NCBI GenBank assembly: GCA_942159475.1
Contig: OW804094.1
Location: forward strand, 18,705,067 to 18,769,066
DNA length: 64,000 nt
Reading direction: 5' to 3'
From: Sthenelais limicola
Taxonomy: Eukaryota > Annelida > Polychaeta > Phyllodocida > Sigalionidae
The notes under the pieces are model-generated. The model was given only the letters and a program-made list of their open reading frames with translations, ran no database searches and was not told where the DNA came from. The position numbers were made by a program, and so were the translations under genes. The first letter of the stretch is position 1. Every line of letters starts with the position of its first letter. This document shows, piece by piece, positions 2,912-13,190 of this stretch.

Positions 2912-3717
2912 TGTAAAGTATGGAGGTCATTAATAAATTACTAATTGATTGTAATTAGGTAATTGGGATAGACCTATAATAATTAGATATGATTAGATAA
3001 TGAAAACATATTAAATGAGCCACTATGGTTTAAGCCTATACAATGATCACCTATCCTTACTAAGAGTTGTATAGCTCACATTGGAATGTGTTTGTGCATT
3101 GGTGTATGTAAATATAGATCAAGCCGGAGGCATGTTGGAACATGTCCCCGGACTTAAACCTGGTTGACAATATACATCTCACCCTGGATCACCGGGATAT
3201 GGGTTGTATCCTTCTGGCAACATGCGGTTGATCCCAGGTCACCTGATTCCCAACCAACTGGCACGGAGGAGAGGTAAAGGATCCAAGCACAAGGGCAGAA
3301 ATGTCACGTGTCCGGATCTAGTATGATCTGCCATGCATTAAGGGTACATGTGAACTTGTAAAGGTGACATCATCAGCATGCGCATATTGTGTCCTGTACT
3401 GGTAGTTATCACGTATTGGTTCTTGACTGAGAATATAAATAAAGCCTCCTGGCAACCCAGGAACACACAACCACTTCTACATTCAACCGTATACCATGTA
3501 GTTGGACTCCACATTATTTCTACACCCCAACCTATGGGGACTTCTATATTCTATTTGGTACAACTAGGACTGTACTGAAGATCAGCCAACTTAGCACCCT
3601 GGCAGCAATGGTTTCAGGCAGCCCCATTTGTATCAAGAGTTCTTTGGAATGGTTCCATCTCAATCACCAGTAATTAATTAGGACAATTAATTAAGGAACC
3701 AGACCAGGGACCTCACA
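2912..3717 (+). repeat. 5' LTR
   Basis: 806 bp with TG...CA ends. By direct reading it matches the 3' LTR at every position except A (3333) versus T (12784). It contains a TATA-like box at 3434-3441. The ORF at 3378-3578 lies wholly inside the LTR, recurs in the other LTR, and is not regarded as a gene. Confidence 0.97.
3434..3441 (+). promoter_or_regulatory. TATA-like box in LTR (overlaps AATAAA)
   Basis: TATAAATAAAG lies 277 bp before the LTR end. It reads both as a TATA box and, at 3438-3443, as a polyadenylation hexamer. Transcription would start about 30 bp downstream. The same site in the 3' LTR is at 12885-12892. U3/R/U5 limits cannot be set from sequence alone. Confidence 0.55.
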
Positions 3718-3721
3718 TAAA

Positions 3722-3732
3722 TGGCGACGAGG
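3722..3732 (+). other. Primer-binding site, tRNA-Ser(GCU) type
   Basis: TGGCGACGAGG begins 4 bp after the LTR. Its complement CCTCGTCG plus CCA is the 3' end of animal tRNA-Ser(GCU) as I recall it. This gives 11 matching bases, including the obligatory TGG. The spacing fits reverse-transcription priming. Confidence 0.75.
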
Positions 3733-3807
3733 TAATGGGATTTAACAGATAGGATAGATACATTTTCCTATGGAGTTAATTGGAAAGGAAACTTTTCAGC
3801 CCACGGA

Positions 3808-4146
3808 ATGGCAGAGAAAAGAGGCAGACGTTGGGACCTGGATGACCTCATGACAGAACTAGAGAACACCTCCAAGACCACAGACAGCAACAGTAAGTGT
3901 GAAAATATCCTTCAAACCATTGAGAGACGTCTGACAAAGATAGAGAAGAAACTGAATAATATTGAACTTCATTTTGGCCTTATTACAAGAAGAGAAAGAA
4001 CTGTTCCATCTGTTATTGAACCTTTCAAATTTGCAAGTCCAGTAAAAGAAGAAGTAAGCTCAGAAGAATATGCAAGGCGCATGAGAACTGTGAGATCAGA
4101 AATGAGAATAGAAGATAAATTGCCATCATCAGATGAGGAAAACTAA
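3808..4146 (+). CDS. Small coiled-coil ORF upstream of gag (unknown)
   Basis: 112 codons from ATG to TAA, ending 85 bp before gag and in a different frame. The protein is highly charged. Residues about 30-55 look like an amphipathic coiled coil (repeated I/L with E/K, near ERRLTKIEKKLNNIELHF). The tail is acidic and ends SSDEEN. No zinc finger, catalytic motif or membrane segment is visible. It is the first ORF on the genomic RNA, so it could be a leader protein, a separated gag N-terminus or a regulator. Most Ty3/gypsy elements start directly with gag. An in-frame open stretch with charged composition supports coding, but function is unknown. Confidence 0.6.
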   Translation: MAEKRGRRWDLDDLMTELENTSKTTDSNSKCENILQTIERRLTKIEKKLNNIELHFGLITRRERTVPSVIEPFKFASPVKEEVSSEEYARRMRTVRSEMRIEDKLPSSDEEN

Positions 4147-4231
4147 TCATAAAGAAAGGTCTACTGTATAACAGGGAAATCAGAATTGATAATAGAGACT
4201 GTATATTTGATCAATACAATCAAAATTCAAC

Positions 4232-5173
4232 ATGGATCCTTTACTACAAAAGAGAATCCAAGAGCAGGTTAGAAGGATTGGGGAATGTGATGGTAGAAAC
4301 AAGGAGGATGTCAAAAGATTCATTAAAGAGATTGATGCCTTGAAAACATGGACAGGGATACAAGATCACCATTTGATCCCTATCTTGGGGTACACATGTA
4401 AAGGGAATTTGAGGGATTCCATTCAGTCATTCATAGCAGCCCAACCAAGGGATCCGCAACATCCGGATCAGCTAGCCCCAATAACATGGGCTAGGGTAAA
4501 GCAGGAAATTGAGGCTAATTTCATGGAGGAGAATGAATATCTCTGCAGGAGACTAGAGATATCCTACATTAAACAAAGGCAATATGAATCAGTAAGAGAA
4601 TTTGCCCAAAGGTTTAGAGATATGGTAAACCAAGCCTATAGGCCGGGACAAGTGAATGATATTGTAAGAGAGCAACTGATATATCATTTTATAAATGGGC
4701 TCATGAATAGTGATATCCGCTTCATGACTCTGAGCGCTCGACCTCAGACTCTGGATTTGGCGATAACTAGGGCACTGGATATCTCCAACGCCCACAAGAT
4801 GAGTTCGATCGCGTCACAGAACTTCGCCGGACCTAGTTATCCGACTCAGACTACCCTGGATCGTCACGAGACCCCCATGGAAACCGCAGCAGTAGCTCCG
4901 CGAGCTCCTCGCCCTGCCCCGACCGGAGATCAAGGTGGGACAGGCGCGGCCAAGGAGAAGCAGTATACGCTTCGGGAGGATGTCGATTATCTAAAGCGAC
5001 AGTTCAAAGGTATTGACCGTAAAATGCAACGGTTCATGAAAGACGTAAAGGATGCAGTTGGAGGATCCACGGATCAAAAGAGGCCGAGTAGGTTTGGAGA
5101 TAAGCAAGTCTGCTTCGCGTGTCAAAAGGAAGGACATTTTGCACGCGAATGTCCAAACAAGCAGGGAAACTAG
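4232..5173 (+). CDS. gag: Gag polyprotein
   Basis: 313 codons. The protein would form the virus-like particle and bind genomic RNA. Residues about 1-200 are helical, capsid-like and Trp/Gln-containing, resembling retrotransposon gag domains. A Pro/Ala-rich linker follows. Near the C-terminus a basic segment precedes a single CCHC zinc knuckle, CFACQKEGHFARECPN (C-x2-C-x4-H-x4-C), typical of nucleocapsid. The stop TAG at 5171-5173 directly follows the slippery heptamer at 5164-5170, so a fraction of ribosomes should continue into pol. The start is the first ATG of the open frame. No disruption is seen. Confidence 0.93.
   Translation: MDPLLQKRIQEQVRRIGECDGRNKEDVKRFIKEIDALKTWTGIQDHHLIPILGYTCKGNLRDSIQSFIAAQPRDPQHPDQLAPITWARVKQEIEANFMEENEYLCRRLEISYIKQRQYESVREFAQRFRDMVNQAYRPGQVNDIVREQLIYHFINGLMNSDIRFMTLSARPQTLDLAITRALDISNAHKMSSIASQNFAGPSYPTQTTLDRHETPMETAAVAPRAPRPAPTGDQGGTGAAKEKQYTLREDVDYLKRQFKGIDRKMQRFMKDVKDAVGGSTDQKRPSRFGDKQVCFACQKEGHFARECPNKQGN
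5164..5170 (+). other. -1 ribosomal frameshift site GGGAAAC
   Basis: In the gag frame the sequence reads G GGA AAC then TAG, a textbook X XXY YYZ heptamer. pol is open in exactly the -1 frame from here (next codon 5170-5172). A short downstream stem (TTGTG/CACAA near 5204-5220) is weak. A stimulatory pseudoknot was not resolved by eye. Confidence 0.85.
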
Positions 5174-6453
5174 GAGGACCTGTGTCACTGAGGCGGCCAT
5201 CAATTGTGATCGAGGCACAAGACGTCAGTGTGACCGCCCTCGTTGACACAGGGTCAACATGTTCTCTCATGAGTGAGCAACTATTTTCTCTTATTTGTAA
5301 ACGATCGCATAGACAACCTATAACCTATTATACACCAGGACTGTGTGGTGTATCTGGACAGAGACTAGAGGTAGTAGGAAAGACTGTATTGCCACTAAAT
5401 TGTTGTCCCGATATAGATGTAGTGGTGGTGAGAGAATTGCCTCACGATTTTATTATTGGGAATGATTATCTTGAACGTCACGGAGGAGTTGTGAACTACA
5501 TAACAAAGAAAGTAACTATTGATGGAAAAGAACATTCTTATGTCGGTGCTTCCATGGTACCGGTGGTTTACTCTTGTGCGGTGGTAGACTGGGAAGGGCG
5601 CTACCCGGAGGTATTCTCGACTCTTAAGGAACCGCTGGGACGCGTCTCGACTAGGTGTGCCATTGACACGGGAGAACACTTACCGTTTCGCATGAAAGCC
5701 TACCGTACTCCCCTGACCAAGAGAAAGGTAATCGAGGAAACTTTGGAAGAAATGTTGAAAGATGGTGTAGTAGAACCATCGAAATCCCCTTGGGCATCAC
5801 CCGTGACACTGGTGCCTAAGAAAGGGGGAGAGCAGCGTTTCTGTATTGACTACCGGAAGTTAAATTCTTATACAAAGAAAGACAGTTATCCACTTCCGGT
5901 AATACAAGATATTTTTGATCAGTTGGGAGGGTGTAACCTATTTACGACCCTCGATCTTAAAAGTGGGTATTGGCAAGTGCCAATGGATGAAGCATCAAAG
6001 GAGAAGACAGCATTCATAACTCACAAAGGTCTGTACCAGTTTAATGTCATGCCATTTGGACTGTGTAATGCACCAGCTGTATTCCAGCGATTGATGAATG
6101 AAATTCTATATGATGTGCTCGGACGTTTTGCAATGGTCTACTTAGACGATGTAGTTATATATAGCAAAACAAAGGAGGAGCACAAGGAACATGTGTCGGC
6201 AGTGCTTGAACGCCTATTGGAGGCCGGTGTCAAATTGAAGAAATCAAAATGTACATTTGCAGCGAGAGAGGTCAAACTTCTGGGCTATATTGTGACACCA
6301 GAAGGAATAGCAGCTGACCCAGATAAAGTACGCGCCATTGAACAGTTAGAGGAACCAAAGACTGTCACAGAGGTGCGTAGTTTCATAGGCATGGCGTCCT
6401 ATTATAGACAATGTATTAAAAAACTTCGCAACAATTGCTGCTCCCCTGAATGA
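5170..6453 (+). CDS. pol: Pol, protease and reverse transcriptase part (ends at frameshift)
   Basis: Read in the -1 frame from the slippery site. The aspartic protease active site is ALVDTGSTCSL (DTG at 5245-5253). The reverse transcriptase follows: PLP and LDLKSGYWQVPM motifs, MPFGLCNAPAVFQRLM, and the catalytic YLDD at 6139-6150, then LLGYIVTPEGI of the thumb/connection. These are Ty3/gypsy signatures. The frame runs out at TGA 6451-6453, shortly after the expected RT-RNase H junction, because of an extra base in the A-run at 6418-6423. Protease cuts the polyprotein. RT copies RNA to DNA in the particle. Confidence 0.94.
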   Translation, partial: LGGPVSLRRPSIVIEAQDVSVTALVDTGSTCSLMSEQLFSLICKRSHRQPITYYTPGLCGVSGQRLEVVGKTVLPLNCCPDIDVVVVRELPHDFIIGNDYLERHGGVVNYITKKVTIDGKEHSYVGASMVPVVYSCAVVDWEGRYPEVFSTLKEPLGRVSTRCAIDTGEHLPFRMKAYRTPLTKRKVIEETLEEMLKDGVVEPSKSPWASPVTLVPKKGGEQRFCIDYRKLNSYTKKDSYPLPVIQDIFDQLGGCNLFTTLDLKSGYWQVPMDEASKEKTAFITHKGLYQFNVMPFGLCNAPAVFQRLMNEILYDVLGRFAMVYLDDVVIYSKTKEEHKEHVSAVLERLLEAGVKLKKSKCTFAAREVKLLGYIVTPEGIAADPDKVRAIEQLEEPKTVTEVRSFIGMASYYRQCIKKLRNNCCSPE

Positions 6454-8455
6454 GTTAACAAAGAAACGTGCAACATTTAAATGGACACCCGAATGTACGG
6501 AATCGTTCAACAAATTGAAAGAAGCATTGTGCGGACAGGAGATAATGGCTGTCCCGGACCTGACGCAGCCATACATCTTGTATACGGATGCTTCGAATGT
6601 CGCTGTAGGGGGCGTGTTGGTTCAGGAGAGGGACGGAGTCGAACGAGTGATACAGTACGTTTCGAAGAAACTAAACTCTAGCGAGAAGAAGTGGTCTACC
6701 ATCGAGAAAGAGGCCTGGGCGATAATCTATTGCCTGAAGAAATTGAGAACATATCTGTATTCCGCTCGCTTTGTCATCCGGACGGATCATAAACCATTGA
6801 AGAGTCTATTTCTAAGTGAGGTAGCTAACACCAGAGTACAGAGATGGGCAGTATTGTTAGCAGAGCACGGAGCACCGATCGAGCACCGAAAAGGGAAAGA
6901 CAATGTCCGGGCCGATATGCTTTCAAGATTGACACCACCGGAAGTATGCATATTAGACACATGTGTGAATTGGATCAAACCCGAGGAAGATGATGCCGAA
7001 GAAGAAGGCGTGTCTATTCCTTGGGATGGAGATGGCCTTAAAATTGATGAGGTCATAACTGAACAGAAAACTATGGCCGAATATACCGCAGCGCTAGAAG
7101 GAGATGAGCGCTACAACTTATGTAAAGGGCTTTTGTATGATGTCACAGAAGAAAATCAACTAACACCGTACCCGAGGTTGGTACTCCCGCCCTCGTGCCG
7201 GTGGCGTGTCATCCGACGCACGCACACTGAAGTAGGTCATCAAGGAGTCTCTAAAACACTATGGAGACTAAAGGAGGCTTACAAATGGCCGGGAATGAGG
7301 AAACAGATCAAAACTGTCCTAGCCAAGTGTGCCCACTGTGCCATTAAACGCGATACCCAACAACATGCAGCGCCAGGAGAGATGCCTATTGCAACTTATC
7401 CTTTTCAAATCATTGGCATGGATTTGACAGGCCCTTTTCAACGTTCAGATAATGGAAATCGATATATACTGACTGTTATTGATCACTGCAGTGGGTGGGT
7501 CGAAATGAAGCCCATTCCTTCAAAACATGAGGAAAATGTCTTCAACTACTTAGACCGAGAATTGGTTCCACGGTATGGCACGCCGGAGGTCATTATTACG
7601 GACCAGGGAGGAGAATTCAATGGCCATGTCATAACAGAATATATGAAGAGCTTAGGAATTGACCACCGCCGGACTTCCCCGTACCACCCACACTCTAACG
7701 GCCGTACGGAACGCGCACATAGGTCAATCAAGCAGATAATCAGGTCATTAGTGCAAGGTCAGAATAGTCGATGGGAGCAGGAGCTTGGTCACGCGCTCCT
7801 GGCTCATAGGATATCTACATCAGTAACTACCGGTTACACGCCCTATTTTCTCCTATATGGGCGTCGGGCAAGGATACCGCTCAGCTCCATGTTGAGAAGA
7901 GTGCCTGGGGATGATCCCACGGTAGTGAGTGATCGGTTGGATACCTTGGCAACAGCCTTACAGGATGCAGCCCGTAATACATCCGAGTCACGTACATATA
8001 ACACAAAGAGGTTACAGGAAAAAGCATCTAAGGTACAGATACAGCCCGGAGACACCGTGGTTGTAAAGAACACACGTCATCAGGCTTTTGATTCCGGGTG
8101 GTTACCGCAGTACGAGGTCACTCGGGTCACCGGTCCCGTGATATGGTGTCGTCATCAACTGACAGGCAAAATGAAGATCGTCAATCGGTGCAGGGTATAT
8201 CCTGTGGCGAGGGACATCGTTTGGGACATTCCTATTCCACCTCGGAGGGAACCCAAACCTACTCGACCCTACCTGCCCAGAGCAGCCAAGGAGCGCAACC
8301 CGCCTCGGTACGAAGACGATCCCGACTGGACACCTGTGTTGCCTAGAACGGTTCAGAAGAGAGGACATTCTGAAACAGAAACAGATACAAAGGCGGAGAT
8401 AGAGCCTGAAGGAAAGAGACAATGCATTGGATGCATTGGTCCTTGTGTCTGCTAA
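6422..8455 (+). CDS. pol: Pol, RNase H and integrase part
   Basis: Continues pol in the next frame. RNase H shows YILYTDASNVAVGG (first Asp), STIEKEAWAI (Glu) and RTDHKPL (Asp). Integrase has an HHCC zinc domain (HTEVGHQG to CAHC), then a catalytic triad in GMDLTGP, TDQGGEF and NGRTERAHR. The second Asp and the Glu are separated by 35 residues (D-35-E). A C-terminal GPY/F-like module lies around TGPVIWCRH. The last 34 bp overlap the env start. Every catalytic residue is present. The only defect is the separation from the RT frame upstream. Confidence 0.94.
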   Translation, partial: NFATIAAPLNELTKKRATFKWTPECTESFNKLKEALCGQEIMAVPDLTQPYILYTDASNVAVGGVLVQERDGVERVIQYVSKKLNSSEKKWSTIEKEAWAIIYCLKKLRTYLYSARFVIRTDHKPLKSLFLSEVANTRVQRWAVLLAEHGAPIEHRKGKDNVRADMLSRLTPPEVCILDTCVNWIKPEEDDAEEEGVSIPWDGDGLKIDEVITEQKTMAEYTAALEGDERYNLCKGLLYDVTEENQLTPYPRLVLPPSCRWRVIRRTHTEVGHQGVSKTLWRLKEAYKWPGMRKQIKTVLAKCAHCAIKRDTQQHAAPGEMPIATYPFQIIGMDLTGPFQRSDNGNRYILTVIDHCSGWVEMKPIPSKHEENVFNYLDRELVPRYGTPEVIITDQGGEFNGHVITEYMKSLGIDHRRTSPYHPHSNGRTERAHRSIKQIIRSLVQGQNSRWEQELGHALLAHRISTSVTTGYTPYFLLYGRRARIPLSSMLRRVPGDDPTVVSDRLDTLATALQDAARNTSESRTYNTKRLQEKASKVQIQPGDTVVVKNTRHQAFDSGWLPQYEVTRVTGPVIWCRHQLTGKMKIVNRCRVYPVARDIVWDIPIPPRREPKPTRPYLPRAAKERNPPRYEDDPDWTPVLPRTVQKRGHSETETDTKAEIEPEGKRQCIGCIGPCVC

Positions 8456-10215
8456 GCCTCCTACACTTAGTGACTGGGTCACTTCTACGGAATGATGGAG
8501 TCTTAATCACGGAAGCTGCGAAAGGACGTGAGAGAGTGGGAACGTGGACTGTACTCGTTACGGTACGGGCCCCACCACCTAGCCAGGTATGGACACTCAT
8601 TCCACAGGTAGAGGAGCGCTTGAAAGCAATGAAGAAGGATGTAGGTAACATTACCTACAACGATTGGCTAAGGAGATTGAATAGGATGAGGGACGCTTCA
8701 TCGGCTTCACCTAGCCGAACCAAAAGAGGATTGGTAAACGGCATAGGGCACCTTAGTCGTTGGCTGTTCGGCACGGCCACGGTGGACGAAGTAAAGGAAT
8801 TACAAGGAATTGTTGAATCCGTACGAGGAACAACTGAAGGACTTGTACACGCGCACAACGGACTTGTCACTGTTGTTAATAAGACAGCCGAAGCTTTGCT
8901 ACAACAGCAGACTAAGATCCAGGGACTACAGGATCAACTTATGGACATAGGAGAAGAAATGGCTCTTGTTACCATAAGGATTAATCATCTCAGCAGAGAA
9001 GTTACTAAGTTACAAATGAAAGGAGCTGTCGATGGATTGCTGTCGCAACTCGAATTGCTACATAGCGACTGGGAGAGAAACCAAGCAGTCTTCGTCGATC
9101 AACAACGGGCCCTCGATCGGGGTTGGCTCACGGTTGATCTCCTCAGTGAAAACCAGCTACATTCGATTCTTGAGAGTCAATCAGGGACACTTTCTACTCG
9201 ACCCTTACCAATTCGCTGGTACTACCGGAACACCTGAATAGGACTTCTGTGGTACAAAGACAGTGAGTTTGTTTATAGAGCTTCTTTACCAATAGTTAAT
9301 AACGAACAATATATTATCTACAATATCAAAACTGTACCTGTATACACGGGTAAAGAGAACATCTGGAGAAGACTCACCGACGTTCCGGAACAAGTGGGAT
9401 GGAACACACGACGCGGTGGTGTTATCGACACTAAATTCTGTAGAGGTGATGATCCGGTGGTATGCCCACCAACTGTGCACCATAGACATGAACTGTGTAT
9501 CGAAGGAGTGATAACAGGACATAAAGGACAATTCGACAGTTGCCGAGTGCTACTGTTCGAAGATGATCGTGAAAGTGACGCCTATAAAATTGCTAATAAT
9601 TTGTATCTCCTTTCAGCTCGAGAAAATGTGACAATGTCAATCCATTGTCTTGGTAAACAGGAAACTCGGGAATCCGTTAGTAAAGCTAGAATATATGAAG
9701 TAAAGCCAGGTTGCATTGTTTCAACAGAGGGTTGGAGGATAATGGGAGAATGGACGCATACGATCAAAATAACGAAGGTACAACAAAATAAAGCTTCTTT
9801 GGCAGTAAAATTAGATTTTGACGCAGATTTGGCAGTAAGTACATTTAAGAAAATTCGGAAATCTACAGGACAAGATTCGGTAAAAATTGATATTGGTACT
9901 ACAGATAGTCTATATGTTAACAAACCTAAAGTATTCACAAAGAAACATGTTGCCGGAACTTCTGTCGGAATAACTATTATATTTTGCCTGACTTTGATTG
10001 TATGTGGGTATTGTTTATGTAAATATAAACCATGTCCGGCACGCCGAGTGCGTGTACCCACTGTAGAAATGTCAACATTACCGACCGGCGTACAGAGATT
10101 CACTGTGAGGACCACCCCCACTGTTGAGCGGCGGGCTGGTGATCGGAGAGCGGTTATCGAACAAATCAATGAAATACCACCGCCTCCTAGCGCGCCAAGA
10201 GCGAGTCAAGCGTGA
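8422..10215 (+). pseudogene. env: Envelope glycoprotein, F-like, with one internal TGA
   Basis: The frame opens at ATG 8422 inside the end of pol. Residues 1-20 form a signal peptide. A short ectodomain with an N-glycosylation site (NIT, about residue 76) leads to RTKR (99-102), a furin-type site. A Gly-rich hydrophobic stretch GLVNGIGHLSRWLFGTAT follows it, then a long heptad region. This layout (small N-part, R-x-K-R, fusion peptide-like start) resembles baculovirus F / errantivirus Env proteins. A TGA at 9235-9237 interrupts the frame. The same frame then stays open through Cys-rich sequence and a transmembrane segment (about 9964-10020) to TGA at 10213. Upstream of that last stop is a Pro-rich cytoplasmic tail. 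The first TGA (followed by ATA) most likely inactivates this copy. Confidence 0.85.
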
Positions 10216-10407
10216 CTAGGACCGGAACCGCTGTATGACCGGCCTGGCTCGGTTAAGACCAGAACTCCGAAACAAAGGACGCGCTCTATAGGTCATCAAG
10301 TGTCATTTTCCGAGTCTGACGAACACTTGTACGAGGATCTAAGTTCAACTTATGATATCTCCGATGACGACGAGTTTGTACGGAGACAGTTGTATATTAG
10401 ACCATAA
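10216..10407 (+). other. Open in-frame extension after env stop (possible readthrough tail)
   Basis: The env stop reads TGA CTA G, the context known to allow efficient readthrough. The env frame stays open for 63 further codons to TAA at 10405-10407. The encoded stretch is charged and carries YEDL (a Y-x-x-hydrophobic sorting-type motif) and an acidic YDISDDDEF. Alternatively the TGA is a CGA-to-TGA mutation and the longer form is the ancestral Env tail. Confidence 0.5.
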
Positions 10408-10685
10408 TTTCTAAATTGACTAATTTCAGGCTTCCTTTTCCGGGCGGAGTATAAGATAACGCTTATACATTAGAAATTCGAAATTTCATGACTTACGAGA
10501 GAGCGAGATTATGAATCGAGACTAAAATAACGAATTGAGAATTGCGATAGACAGATCACTGCGATACGATACAAGCTAAGGCTGTATTCAAAGGAGAAAA
10601 CGTATATATACACCGGAAGTATATTACGTATATATATACATATATATATATTTTAACCCTAGAAAATATAATCTACTATATAACT
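10408..10685 (+). promoter_or_regulatory. AT-rich leader of the downstream ORF
   Basis: After env, 10601-10652 holds repeated TATATA blocks. A pyrimidine-containing TTTTAACCCTAG at 10651-10662 ends 23 bp before the next ATG. It could be an internal TATA-type promoter or a 3' splice site for a subgenomic mRNA. The sequence alone does not decide. Confidence 0.35.
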
Positions 10686-11660
10686 ATGGTGGAGGAGTAT
10701 ATCATATCTAATGACGAGTTGGATTTTGAGCGGCTAATGTATTGCTCGCCGTATTTCCGGCTATTAAAGCGCTATGTGGGAGATGGTTGGGCGGACGAGA
10801 TTGTCTTACCCCCGATTCTCGATTTAACTGGATATGTTACCGTTTTTAAGATCCTAGCAACTCAGAAAGGGGATGTGGCTCTGTGGTCGTTGGCGGAATT
10901 GATCCGGAGGGGGGACGTAGAACGCTATGTCGATTTTATGCTCTACTTCTTAAACGAAAATTATCTTTTGGACATTGTCTACGTATTAGCTCAGGGTTTG
11001 GGAGAGGGAGTCCACCGTTACGTAGCGGCACTTCTGAACGTGGCCGGACTCCGCTCTGACAGACTTTGGCAATGCGCCCATTTTAAAGGTAAGAAAACCC
11101 TTTCGGACTCTATTGTGGAAATCCTCGCGGACACATGCGAGATAGCCCCCGGATCGATGATACCAGCCACTGTAGCAACTAGCCCCGAGCGCGGCGAATA
11201 TATCTCAACGAATAAAATGTCGCGTTTTATTTATAAAGGCCGCCGAAGGAAAAGGCGTCAAGTGCCTTCCTTCTTCGTGTGCGCCATATGCTTAGAGCTT
11301 GGCCTTCTTTTAAAGCGTGGACCGTGGACGGTCAGTCGTGCGGGTCGCACTCCCTGTTGTGGCGCATTGGTCCATCCAATGTGCTATTGGAAGACAAGTA
11401 ATGGGGAGTGGCGTCCTGACGATTGGCAGTGTGATGTCTGCGCTAATTTTATCGAAATCCCCACTGGCCTGGTAGACATAGATTTAAACAACTGGACCGA
11501 TGCGATGAGGCGTATGGAGGTACGGCGGAAATATCAAGTCCCGTTGGAGGTTGATATTCATGTGCCGAAGCGCGAGGAGGAGAAATATGTACCCAAGAAC
11601 GTCGAGGGTATCGAATATTATTCTCCCGAGGTCCGGGTTTACGAGACGCTACCATGGTAG
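10686..11660 (+). CDS. Accessory ORF with C4HC3-type zinc finger (novel)
   Basis: 324 codons, ATG in good context (ACTATGG), uninterrupted. Residues 1-180 are mostly helical with no match I recognise. A basic run, GRRRKRR (185-191), could be a nuclear signal. A zinc-finger-like cluster follows: C199-x2-C202, C224-C225, H230-x2-C233, C249-x2-C252, with W247 two residues before the seventh Cys. Cys/His order and the W-x-C-x2-C ending resemble PHD and RING-CH fingers; adjacent C224-C225 is atypical. Such domains bind chromatin marks or act as E3 ubiquitin ligases. It lies inside the element between env and the 3' LTR, so it is an accessory gene in the position where complex retroviruses place theirs. 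Ancestry could be host capture. Function is inferred only. Confidence 0.8.
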   Translation: MVEEYIISNDELDFERLMYCSPYFRLLKRYVGDGWADEIVLPPILDLTGYVTVFKILATQKGDVALWSLAELIRRGDVERYVDFMLYFLNENYLLDIVYVLAQGLGEGVHRYVAALLNVAGLRSDRLWQCAHFKGKKTLSDSIVEILADTCEIAPGSMIPATVATSPERGEYISTNKMSRFIYKGRRRKRRQVPSFFVCAICLELGLLLKRGPWTVSRAGRTPCCGALVHPMCYWKTSNGEWRPDDWQCDVCANFIEIPTGLVDIDLNNWTDAMRRMEVRRKYQVPLEVDIHVPKREEEKYVPKNVEGIEYYSPEVRVYETLPW

Positions 11661-11710
11661 TGATCTACCCTGTATAACTTTGTATTTGTACTACTTATCT
11701 CTGTTATTTC

Positions 11711-12280
11711 TTACCATGTCTTGAGGAATGGACTGTGTTCCTAAGACTAAAATATGAATAGGGGTTCGGTGATAAAACTAGAAATAGGTTAAAATCTTTT
11801 GGATCTCGTGATCCGTAAAAGAAAGTCTTACCATGTCTTGAGGGACGGACTGTGTTCCCAGGACTAAAATAAAGGTTGGAGTTTTGGGAGAAAGTATCTT
11901 CCCATCCGGTTGGATTTCACGATCCGTAAAGTTCTTACCAAGTCTTATGGGAACGGACTGTGTTCCCTAAGACCCATTGTCGGGATAGATTCGAATTTTG
12001 TTTGGAGGTATTGGTATACCTTTGTGGGTCTCTTAGCCCACACAAAATCTCTTACCCAAGGAACAATTCCTGTGGATTCATTTTTAACAACCTCTGGATC
12101 ACTGATATCCGGGTACCATTTTTGGGTCTCCTAACCCACTAAATTCTTACACCATGGACGACGATGTTCCTTAAATTACAGCGTAATATAGCATTGTTGT
12201 GGTAGAACTTCTGGATGCGTCGATATTAGCCACTTTTAACCATGAAAACTCTTACACAAGGACAGAAATGTTCCTTATCT
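11711..12280 (+). repeat. Degenerate six-unit hairpin array in 3' untranslated region
   Basis: Units of roughly 95-120 bp each begin with CTTAC(C/A). The first three hold hairpins at 11718-11747, 11835-11864 and 11942-11973. These have a GTCTT.../...AAGAC-type stem and the same loop core GGACTGTG. Stem bases change on both sides (AGGAA/TTCCT in the first, GGGAA/TTCCC in the third). Units 4 and 6 have AAGGA/TCCTT hairpins near 12058-12071 and 12258-12276; unit 5 (near 12154-12171) is weak. Second small palindromes GGATC/GATCC occur at 11801-11814 and 11912-11925. No ORF runs through. A packaging, dimerisation or RNA-export role is possible. Confidence 0.7.
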
Positions 12281-12348
12281 GACGGCATAATAGGGCATTC
12301 TTTTGCTGTACTCCTAGATACGTTTGGTATCAGCCGGCTCAAAATCTT

Positions 12349-12360
12349 AAGTAAGGGGGG
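12349..12360 (+). other. Polypurine tract
   Basis: AAGTAAGGGGGG is followed by TA and then the TG of the 3' LTR. This is the expected primer for plus-strand DNA synthesis. Confidence 0.85.
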
Positions 12361-12362
12361 TA

Positions 12363-13168
12363 TGTAAAGTATGGAGGTCATTAATAAATTACTAATTGAT
12401 TGTAATTAGGTAATTGGGATAGACCTATAATAATTAGATATGATTAGATAATGAAAACATATTAAATGAGCCACTATGGTTTAAGCCTATACAATGATCA
12501 CCTATCCTTACTAAGAGTTGTATAGCTCACATTGGAATGTGTTTGTGCATTGGTGTATGTAAATATAGATCAAGCCGGAGGCATGTTGGAACATGTCCCC
12601 GGACTTAAACCTGGTTGACAATATACATCTCACCCTGGATCACCGGGATATGGGTTGTATCCTTCTGGCAACATGCGGTTGATCCCAGGTCACCTGATTC
12701 CCAACCAACTGGCACGGAGGAGAGGTAAAGGATCCAAGCACAAGGGCAGAAATGTCACGTGTCCGGATCTAGTATGATCTGCCTTGCATTAAGGGTACAT
12801 GTGAACTTGTAAAGGTGACATCATCAGCATGCGCATATTGTGTCCTGTACTGGTAGTTATCACGTATTGGTTCTTGACTGAGAATATAAATAAAGCCTCC
12901 TGGCAACCCAGGAACACACAACCACTTCTACATTCAACCGTATACCATGTAGTTGGACTCCACATTATTTCTACACCCCAACCTATGGGGACTTCTATAT
13001 TCTATTTGGTACAACTAGGACTGTACTGAAGATCAGCCAACTTAGCACCCTGGCAGCAATGGTTTCAGGCAGCCCCATTTGTATCAAGAGTTCTTTGGAA
13101 TGGTTCCATCTCAATCACCAGTAATTAATTAGGACAATTAATTAAGGAACCAGACCAGGGACCTCACA
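12363..13168 (+). repeat. 3' LTR
   Basis: 806 bp, one substitution from the 5' LTR (T at 12784). Ends ...GGACCTCACA, then CATT of the target duplication. Confidence 0.97.
12885..12892 (+). promoter_or_regulatory. TATA/AATAAA motif in 3' LTR
   Basis: Identical to 3434-3441. In this LTR the overlapping AATAAA would be the one used for polyadenylation, if it is functional. Confidence 0.5.
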
Positions 13169-13190
13169 CATTTTCTGAAATCTGACCCAT
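13169..13190 (-). repeat. MITE-A copy 2, right end, with CATT duplication
   Basis: CATT (13169-13172), then the terminal repeat remainder ending CTGACCCA. A second partial end (AATCTGACCCATATA) follows at 13226-13241, so a degraded MITE-A piece may adjoin it. Confidence 0.85.

Follow-up and report, generated by a model that had tools for sequence, protein, structure and literature searches.

Gene X at the locus

We analyzed a 64,000-nucleotide stretch of the genome of the polychaete Sthenelais limicola (assembly GCA_942159475.1, contig OW804094.1, positions 18,705,067 to 18,769,066 of the forward strand), referred to below as the window. The window contains a long terminal repeat (LTR) retroelement with the features of Ty3/gypsy elements, namely LTRs, a gag gene and the order protease-reverse transcriptase (RT)-RNase H-integrase, and an additional gene, here called X, lies between its env and its 3' LTR. 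X is a fourth, accessory gene that is conserved in a group of Ty3/gypsy retroelements with an envelope. It occurs in four or more LTR families and in one element without detected pol. The features of the gene and of the element, in window positions, are as follows.

10686-11660, + strand: accessory gene X, 324 amino acids (translation; homologues; dN/dS, the ratio of non-synonymous to synonymous substitution rates)
10692-10994, + strand: region coding residues 3-103, possibly BTB-like
11238-11258, + strand: basic run GRRRKRR, residues 185-191 (translation)
11280-11441, + strand: C4HC3 zinc finger, residues 199-252 (invariant ligands; RING matches of the profile)
2912-13168, + strand: whole LTR element, 10,257 nt (LTR pair and a 4-nt duplication, CATT, at 2908-2911 and 13169-13172)
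2912-3717, + strand: 5' LTR (805 of 806 columns match the 3' LTR, gap-free; TG...CA ends)
12363-13168, + strand: 3' LTR (LTR pair comparison)
4211-5173, + strand: gag frame (Pfam Retrotrans_gag 2e-07, zf-CCHC 8e-07)
5104-6453, + strand: pol, protease-RT part (Pfam RVT_1 5.7e-42)
6389-8455, + strand: pol, RNase H-integrase part, in a different frame (Pfam RT_RNaseH 2.5e-35, rve 5.4e-13)
8410-9237, + strand: env 5' part, terminated by a stop (Baculo_F 1.8e-04, 20.7 bits, under the cut-off of 24.1)
9238-10215, + strand: env 3' part, in the same frame as the 5' part (no Pfam family; open in each of the 14 copies that cover it)

The X frame runs from an ATG to a single terminal stop, giving 324 residues within a stop-to-stop frame of 369 codons, and is located 3' of both env parts and 5' of the LTR that starts at 12363. 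An intact open reading frame of 324 codons between env and the 3' LTR had been reported in a preliminary description of the sequence, and was confirmed here. The finger motifs (C199-x2-C202, C224-C225-x4-H230-x2-C233 and W-x-C249-x2-C252, in C4HC3 order) and the basic run were also found as it had described them. The product appears to consist of an N-terminal, mostly helical part, a basic linker and then a RING-like C4HC3 finger.

Distribution of gene X

We searched the host assembly, 1.13 Gb in 161 contigs, with the X protein at a threshold of E <= 0.001. This search found at least 126 matches, and counts taken from it are lower bounds. Family A, the family of the window element, comprised 11 full-length X copies with 98-100% identity, plus partial ones. 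Family B had 32 rows with 36-37% identity over residues 11-323, none of them with an internal stop. Identity to the window X was 29-31% in the 12 rows of family C, 27-28% in the 6 rows of family D, and 27-28% over a shorter part in the 22 rows of family E, one of which had internal stops. The other matches were partial, broken or weak, and were sorted as a remainder rather than singly.

We read the context of X in one member each of families C, D and E, taking as lengths the open frames between stops. The family C member was 20.0 kb long with identical LTRs of 425 nt and an X of 346 codons, and the family D member was 19.5 kb long with LTRs of 313 nt (99.7% identical) and an X of 340 codons. 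The family E member was 16.6 kb long; its LTRs of 702 nt had one mismatch, and its frames were gag (718 codons), pol (1386), env (970) and X (423). The order gag-pol-env-X-LTR was the same in all three. As to an F-type env akin to baculovirus F, as in Errantivirus-like elements, the family E env matched Baculo_F over the cut-off (7.3e-11), whereas the window env matched it under the cut-off. In C and D the env-like frame had no Pfam match but matched the env of E (E 1e-14 and 4e-19).

The protein database yielded two relatives overall, P0002 and P0003, and no relative was found in viral contigs, phages or prokaryote genomes. The preliminary description had noted X in one element and raised the idea of a captured gene. 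Its accessory nature was borne out, but it is not peculiar to one element, and no host source gene was identified among the part of the 126 matches seen in context.

An element without detected pol

In family B, X belongs to an element of another kind, denoted element B. The ten family-B loci examined all had the same upstream exon pieces, with 99.5-99.8% identity to locus L023 over 3.9 kb, and two copies had a 7.6-kb unit in common. The left end adjoined a TA-rich tract in nine of the ten copies read (all except L031), with the same flank in L033 and L056; a right-end motif was present in nine of ten stretches, three of which (L032, L033 and L065) had the same flank. No LTRs were found in the two copies compared. 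Apart from X, the B unit had no convincing match to the window gag, pol and env pieces or to the family E pol (envA, E 0.55). For the three exon-like frames of B, the single Pfam match up to E 10 was to SH3BP5 (0.11), which is unrelated. One of the features of B is a GHD-x3-HKEYYR motif, which looks tyrosine-recombinase-like, although Pfam does not confirm this.

Four family-B copies were spaced exactly 17,608 bases apart (G000 C4:5209350-5263097, loci L026-L029 and L031-L033), forming a tandem array whose unit exceeds the 7.6-kb element in size. At L035 5988-7886 on the - strand, downstream of a family-B copy and outside the shared unit, a frame of 632 codons was found that matches DUF7869 (2.1e-19).

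Selection and evolution of gene X

In the 11 full-length copies of the window family, dN/dS was 0.12 when pooled over pairs, which are not independent of each other, and 31 of the 47 variable codons were variable by synonymous changes only. The ratio was thus not near 1, a possibility that the preliminary description had raised. Counting each distinct single-step variant once gave 34 synonymous versus 16 non-synonymous variants, where a synonymous share of 27% is expected without selection (p = 1.4e-9). By part, dN/dS was 0.15 in residues 1-165, 0.39 in the linker (166-192), 0 in residues 193-260, where no amino-acid change was seen among the 11 copies, and 0.07 in the tail. The env 3' part had a value of 0.24 in 10 copies. 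In one pair each, X had values of 0.06 in family C, 0.10 in D and 0.13 in E. An open frame due to chance or in decay, or a host sequence acquired by one copy, is contradicted by these low ratios (0.06-0.13), by the several element families and by the invariant ligands described below; some copies are fragmentary or carry stops, but nothing in the frame itself speaks for such an origin, and we regard its probability as negligible.

Between families C and D, X was 38-39% identical, compared with 76% for RT and 81% for integrase. The low dN/dS within families, together with an X that is less alike than RT and integrase between C and D, suggested that X is functional within families and fast-changing between them. 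The latter is a pattern often seen in genes in conflict with their hosts, and we infer that X may be one of these.

In a tree of seven proteins, P0002 and P0003 were grouped with support 100/100 and C and D, less firmly, with 93/93, while E formed a long branch. The tree leaves the joining of A and B unresolved, and a transfer of X from A-like elements to B is therefore not claimed. A and C were closer than C and E in X, and the reverse was true in integrase. These distances, which saturation could also affect, hint that X has been exchanged between elements.

Within the window family, the env 3' part differed less from the window copy than X did in seven of the nine loci L002-L010. For example, L005 had 2 differences in 978 positions of env 3' and 14 in 975 of X, while L007 showed the reverse and L010 was equal. 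This contrast may reflect recombination between copies.

The finger of X resembles RING fingers

The eight ligands (C199, C202, C224, C225, H230, C233, C249 and C252) were invariant in seven full proteins and eight finger pieces. The C4HC3 ligand order is that of RING-CH fingers, and the X finger follows it. We compared a finger profile with the PDB sequences, keeping matches up to E=10. Seventeen of the 19 matches were named as RING finger proteins or E3 ligases, and some of these were repeats of one protein. The best were an E3 ligase in PDB entry 6f98 (3.3e-4, the one match below 0.001), DTX1 (0.0089), AMFR (best 0.010) and HRD1 (best 0.017), and RNF165, RCHY1, ARK2C and RNF126 were also matched. 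The X finger is like these RING ligases in its C-x2-C ... H-x2-C ... C-x2-C pattern as well as in its profile matches. A full-length X profile gave a similar picture, with RING proteins in six of seven matches (best 0.041); the single X sequence had no match in the PDB. In Pfam, the eight finger pieces matched zf-RING_2 (two of eight, best 0.019), RH_dom (two of eight, best 0.015) and PHD (two of eight, best 2.4), all under the cut-off. No family in Pfam or PHROGs reached its cut-off with the X protein, its relatives or the finger pieces.

Two observations weigh against this. Canonical RING and RING-CH fingers have one residue between the third and fourth ligands, while C224 and C225, which take the place of these ligands in X, are adjacent in the sequences aligned. 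The window finger alone matched PHD_2 (1.1), zf-Sec23_Sec24 (1.4) and PHD (2.4) in Pfam, all under the cut-off. We use the label RING-like instead of RING because an adjacent CC is unusual for RING and PHD folds alike.

The non-canonical spacing, the Pfam RING models left under their cut-off and the conservation of ligands while intervening residues vary between families would also agree with a non-enzymatic adaptor. In that case a pseudo-RING or structural zinc module would bind, sequester or relocate a host factor. RING E3 ligases nevertheless remain the preferred matches of the finger profile, and residues 193-260 are unchanged among the 11 copies; we consider an adaptor rather unlikely, though worth considering.

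The PHD matches of the window finger bear on a further explanation, in which X is a nuclear regulator of the RNA or chromatin of the element: a PHD-like finger would read histone tails or bind RNA, and the basic run, which adjoins the finger, would direct X to the nucleus. The spacings C-x4-H-x2-C and W-x-C-x2-C are PHD-like, and the protein CERV, which acts in Cer1 RNA export, provides an analogy, with no kinship claimed. However, outside the RING and E3 proteins the PDB matches of the profile were PCF11 (0.54) and a single PHD protein, SP140 (2.3), and element B also bears X. We consider nuclear regulation improbable, more so than an adaptor. The preliminary description had left the choice between a ubiquitin ligase and a chromatin reader; since the finger profile points to RING ligases, the former is favoured on sequence similarity, and the PHD reader less so.

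Two AlphaFold runs of the X protein gave low confidence, the finger included. The N-terminal half may be BTB-like: it resembles BTB domains in a fold comparison of a low-confidence model, but not in a sequence profile, which found no BTB. It differs from the BTB proteins ZBTB18, Nac1, SPOP, KBTBD2 and KEAP1 in having no sequence-profile support.

A possible role in host ubiquitination

Lentiviral accessory proteins redirect host ligases. In our favoured reading, X would be an accessory protein of comparable effect, working as a component of an E3 ubiquitin ligase that redirects host ubiquitination; we give this reading somewhat less than an even chance. Its N-terminal part would form dimers or bind a partner, which would be CUL3 in the case of a true BTB domain, or else a host target, and its finger would bring in a loaded E2. 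The outcome would be ubiquitination of a host protein that holds the element in check through silencing or antiviral defence.

The presence of X in an element without detected pol suggests that X acts on the host, not in reverse transcription or virion building. It also makes the function of X separable from reverse transcription, so that it could be tested with one small protein. Because distant elements of the same genome keep X under selection, X probably helps its elements inside the host.

A wider proposal is that invertebrate mobile elements share a counter-defence gene in the form of a BTB-like and RING-like ubiquitin-hijacking module. It would be present in several deeply separated enveloped LTR retroelements and in an unrelated recombinase-type element without pol of the same genome, would be exchanged between them, and would disarm, as an E3 ligase, the host defence against transposons and viruses for both. 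We put this forward as a speculation that is more likely wrong than right by a good measure. Manipulation of the host ubiquitin system is a trait of lentiviruses and of large DNA viruses; if the ligase reading is true, the RING-like accessory gene would imply it for elements of this kind too, and X would point to a new host factor that restrains them.

Further features of the window element

The insertion in the window is young, as its two LTRs are nearly identical (one mismatch in 806 nt). The preliminary description had stressed that X stays open while pol and env are broken. Both are broken in the window copy, pol being split over two frames and env by a stop, but this env stop is private to the window copy among the 14 copies covering the place (window included). 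It is therefore a late accident and not a family trait, and for this reason we dropped the idea of an X that persists in an otherwise decaying element.

Between the 5' LTR and gag, a 136-codon open frame was found at 3736-4146; no Pfam family reached its cut-off with it (Snapin_Pallidin 0.14), and it is perhaps a second accessory gene. The non-coding region between X and the 3' LTR (11661-12362) contains diverged internal repeats, about 72-76% identical over about 150 nt, and a recurring CTTACCATGTCTTGAGG-like motif. A copy of an interspersed repeat surrounds the element (2740-2912 and 13169 onwards), and this repeat recurs in the window (families D2-D5, inverted pairs I1 and I2).

Comparison with known systems

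In full-text searches of open PubMed Central, a collection that leaves out preprints and most subscription papers, none of the titles and abstract openings obtained described an LTR retroelement with a RING or BTB protein as its accessory gene product. A role is known for few of the accessory genes in LTR retroelements of invertebrates. Examples are RNA export (CERV, PMC10309623) and cell-to-cell transfer (sORF2, PMC11952523). The nearest precedents among the systems compared are the sharing of ORF3 in bdelloid rotifers, CERV, sORF1/sORF2 and Cryptons with an extra peptidase.

Like X, CERV of Cer1 is an accessory protein made beside gag and pol by a Ty3/gypsy-type element of an invertebrate; it differs in working in genomic RNA export, the two being compared by description and not by sequence (PMC10309623). 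The sORF1 and sORF2 of the Drosophila MDG1 group are also accessory frames in LTR elements and have low non-synonymous rates, but they are short and located upstream of gag, and sORF2 is a membrane protein (PMC11952523). Troyka was considered and dropped, as it is described without an envelope and with 3-bp duplications and CG ends (PMC12440569). Element B resembles Crypton transposons in showing no LTRs in the two copies compared and in its putatively tyrosine-recombinase-like motif. It differs from them in its extra gene, and its recombinase identity is not confirmed by Pfam; some Cryptons bear an additional protein of their own, a C48 peptidase (PMC3212892). The ORF3 of bdelloid rotifer retroelements encodes a GDSL esterase, DEDDy exonuclease or dUTPase and is in this respect not RING-like, but it resembles X as one type of accessory frame that occurs across retroelement classes (PMC5408684).
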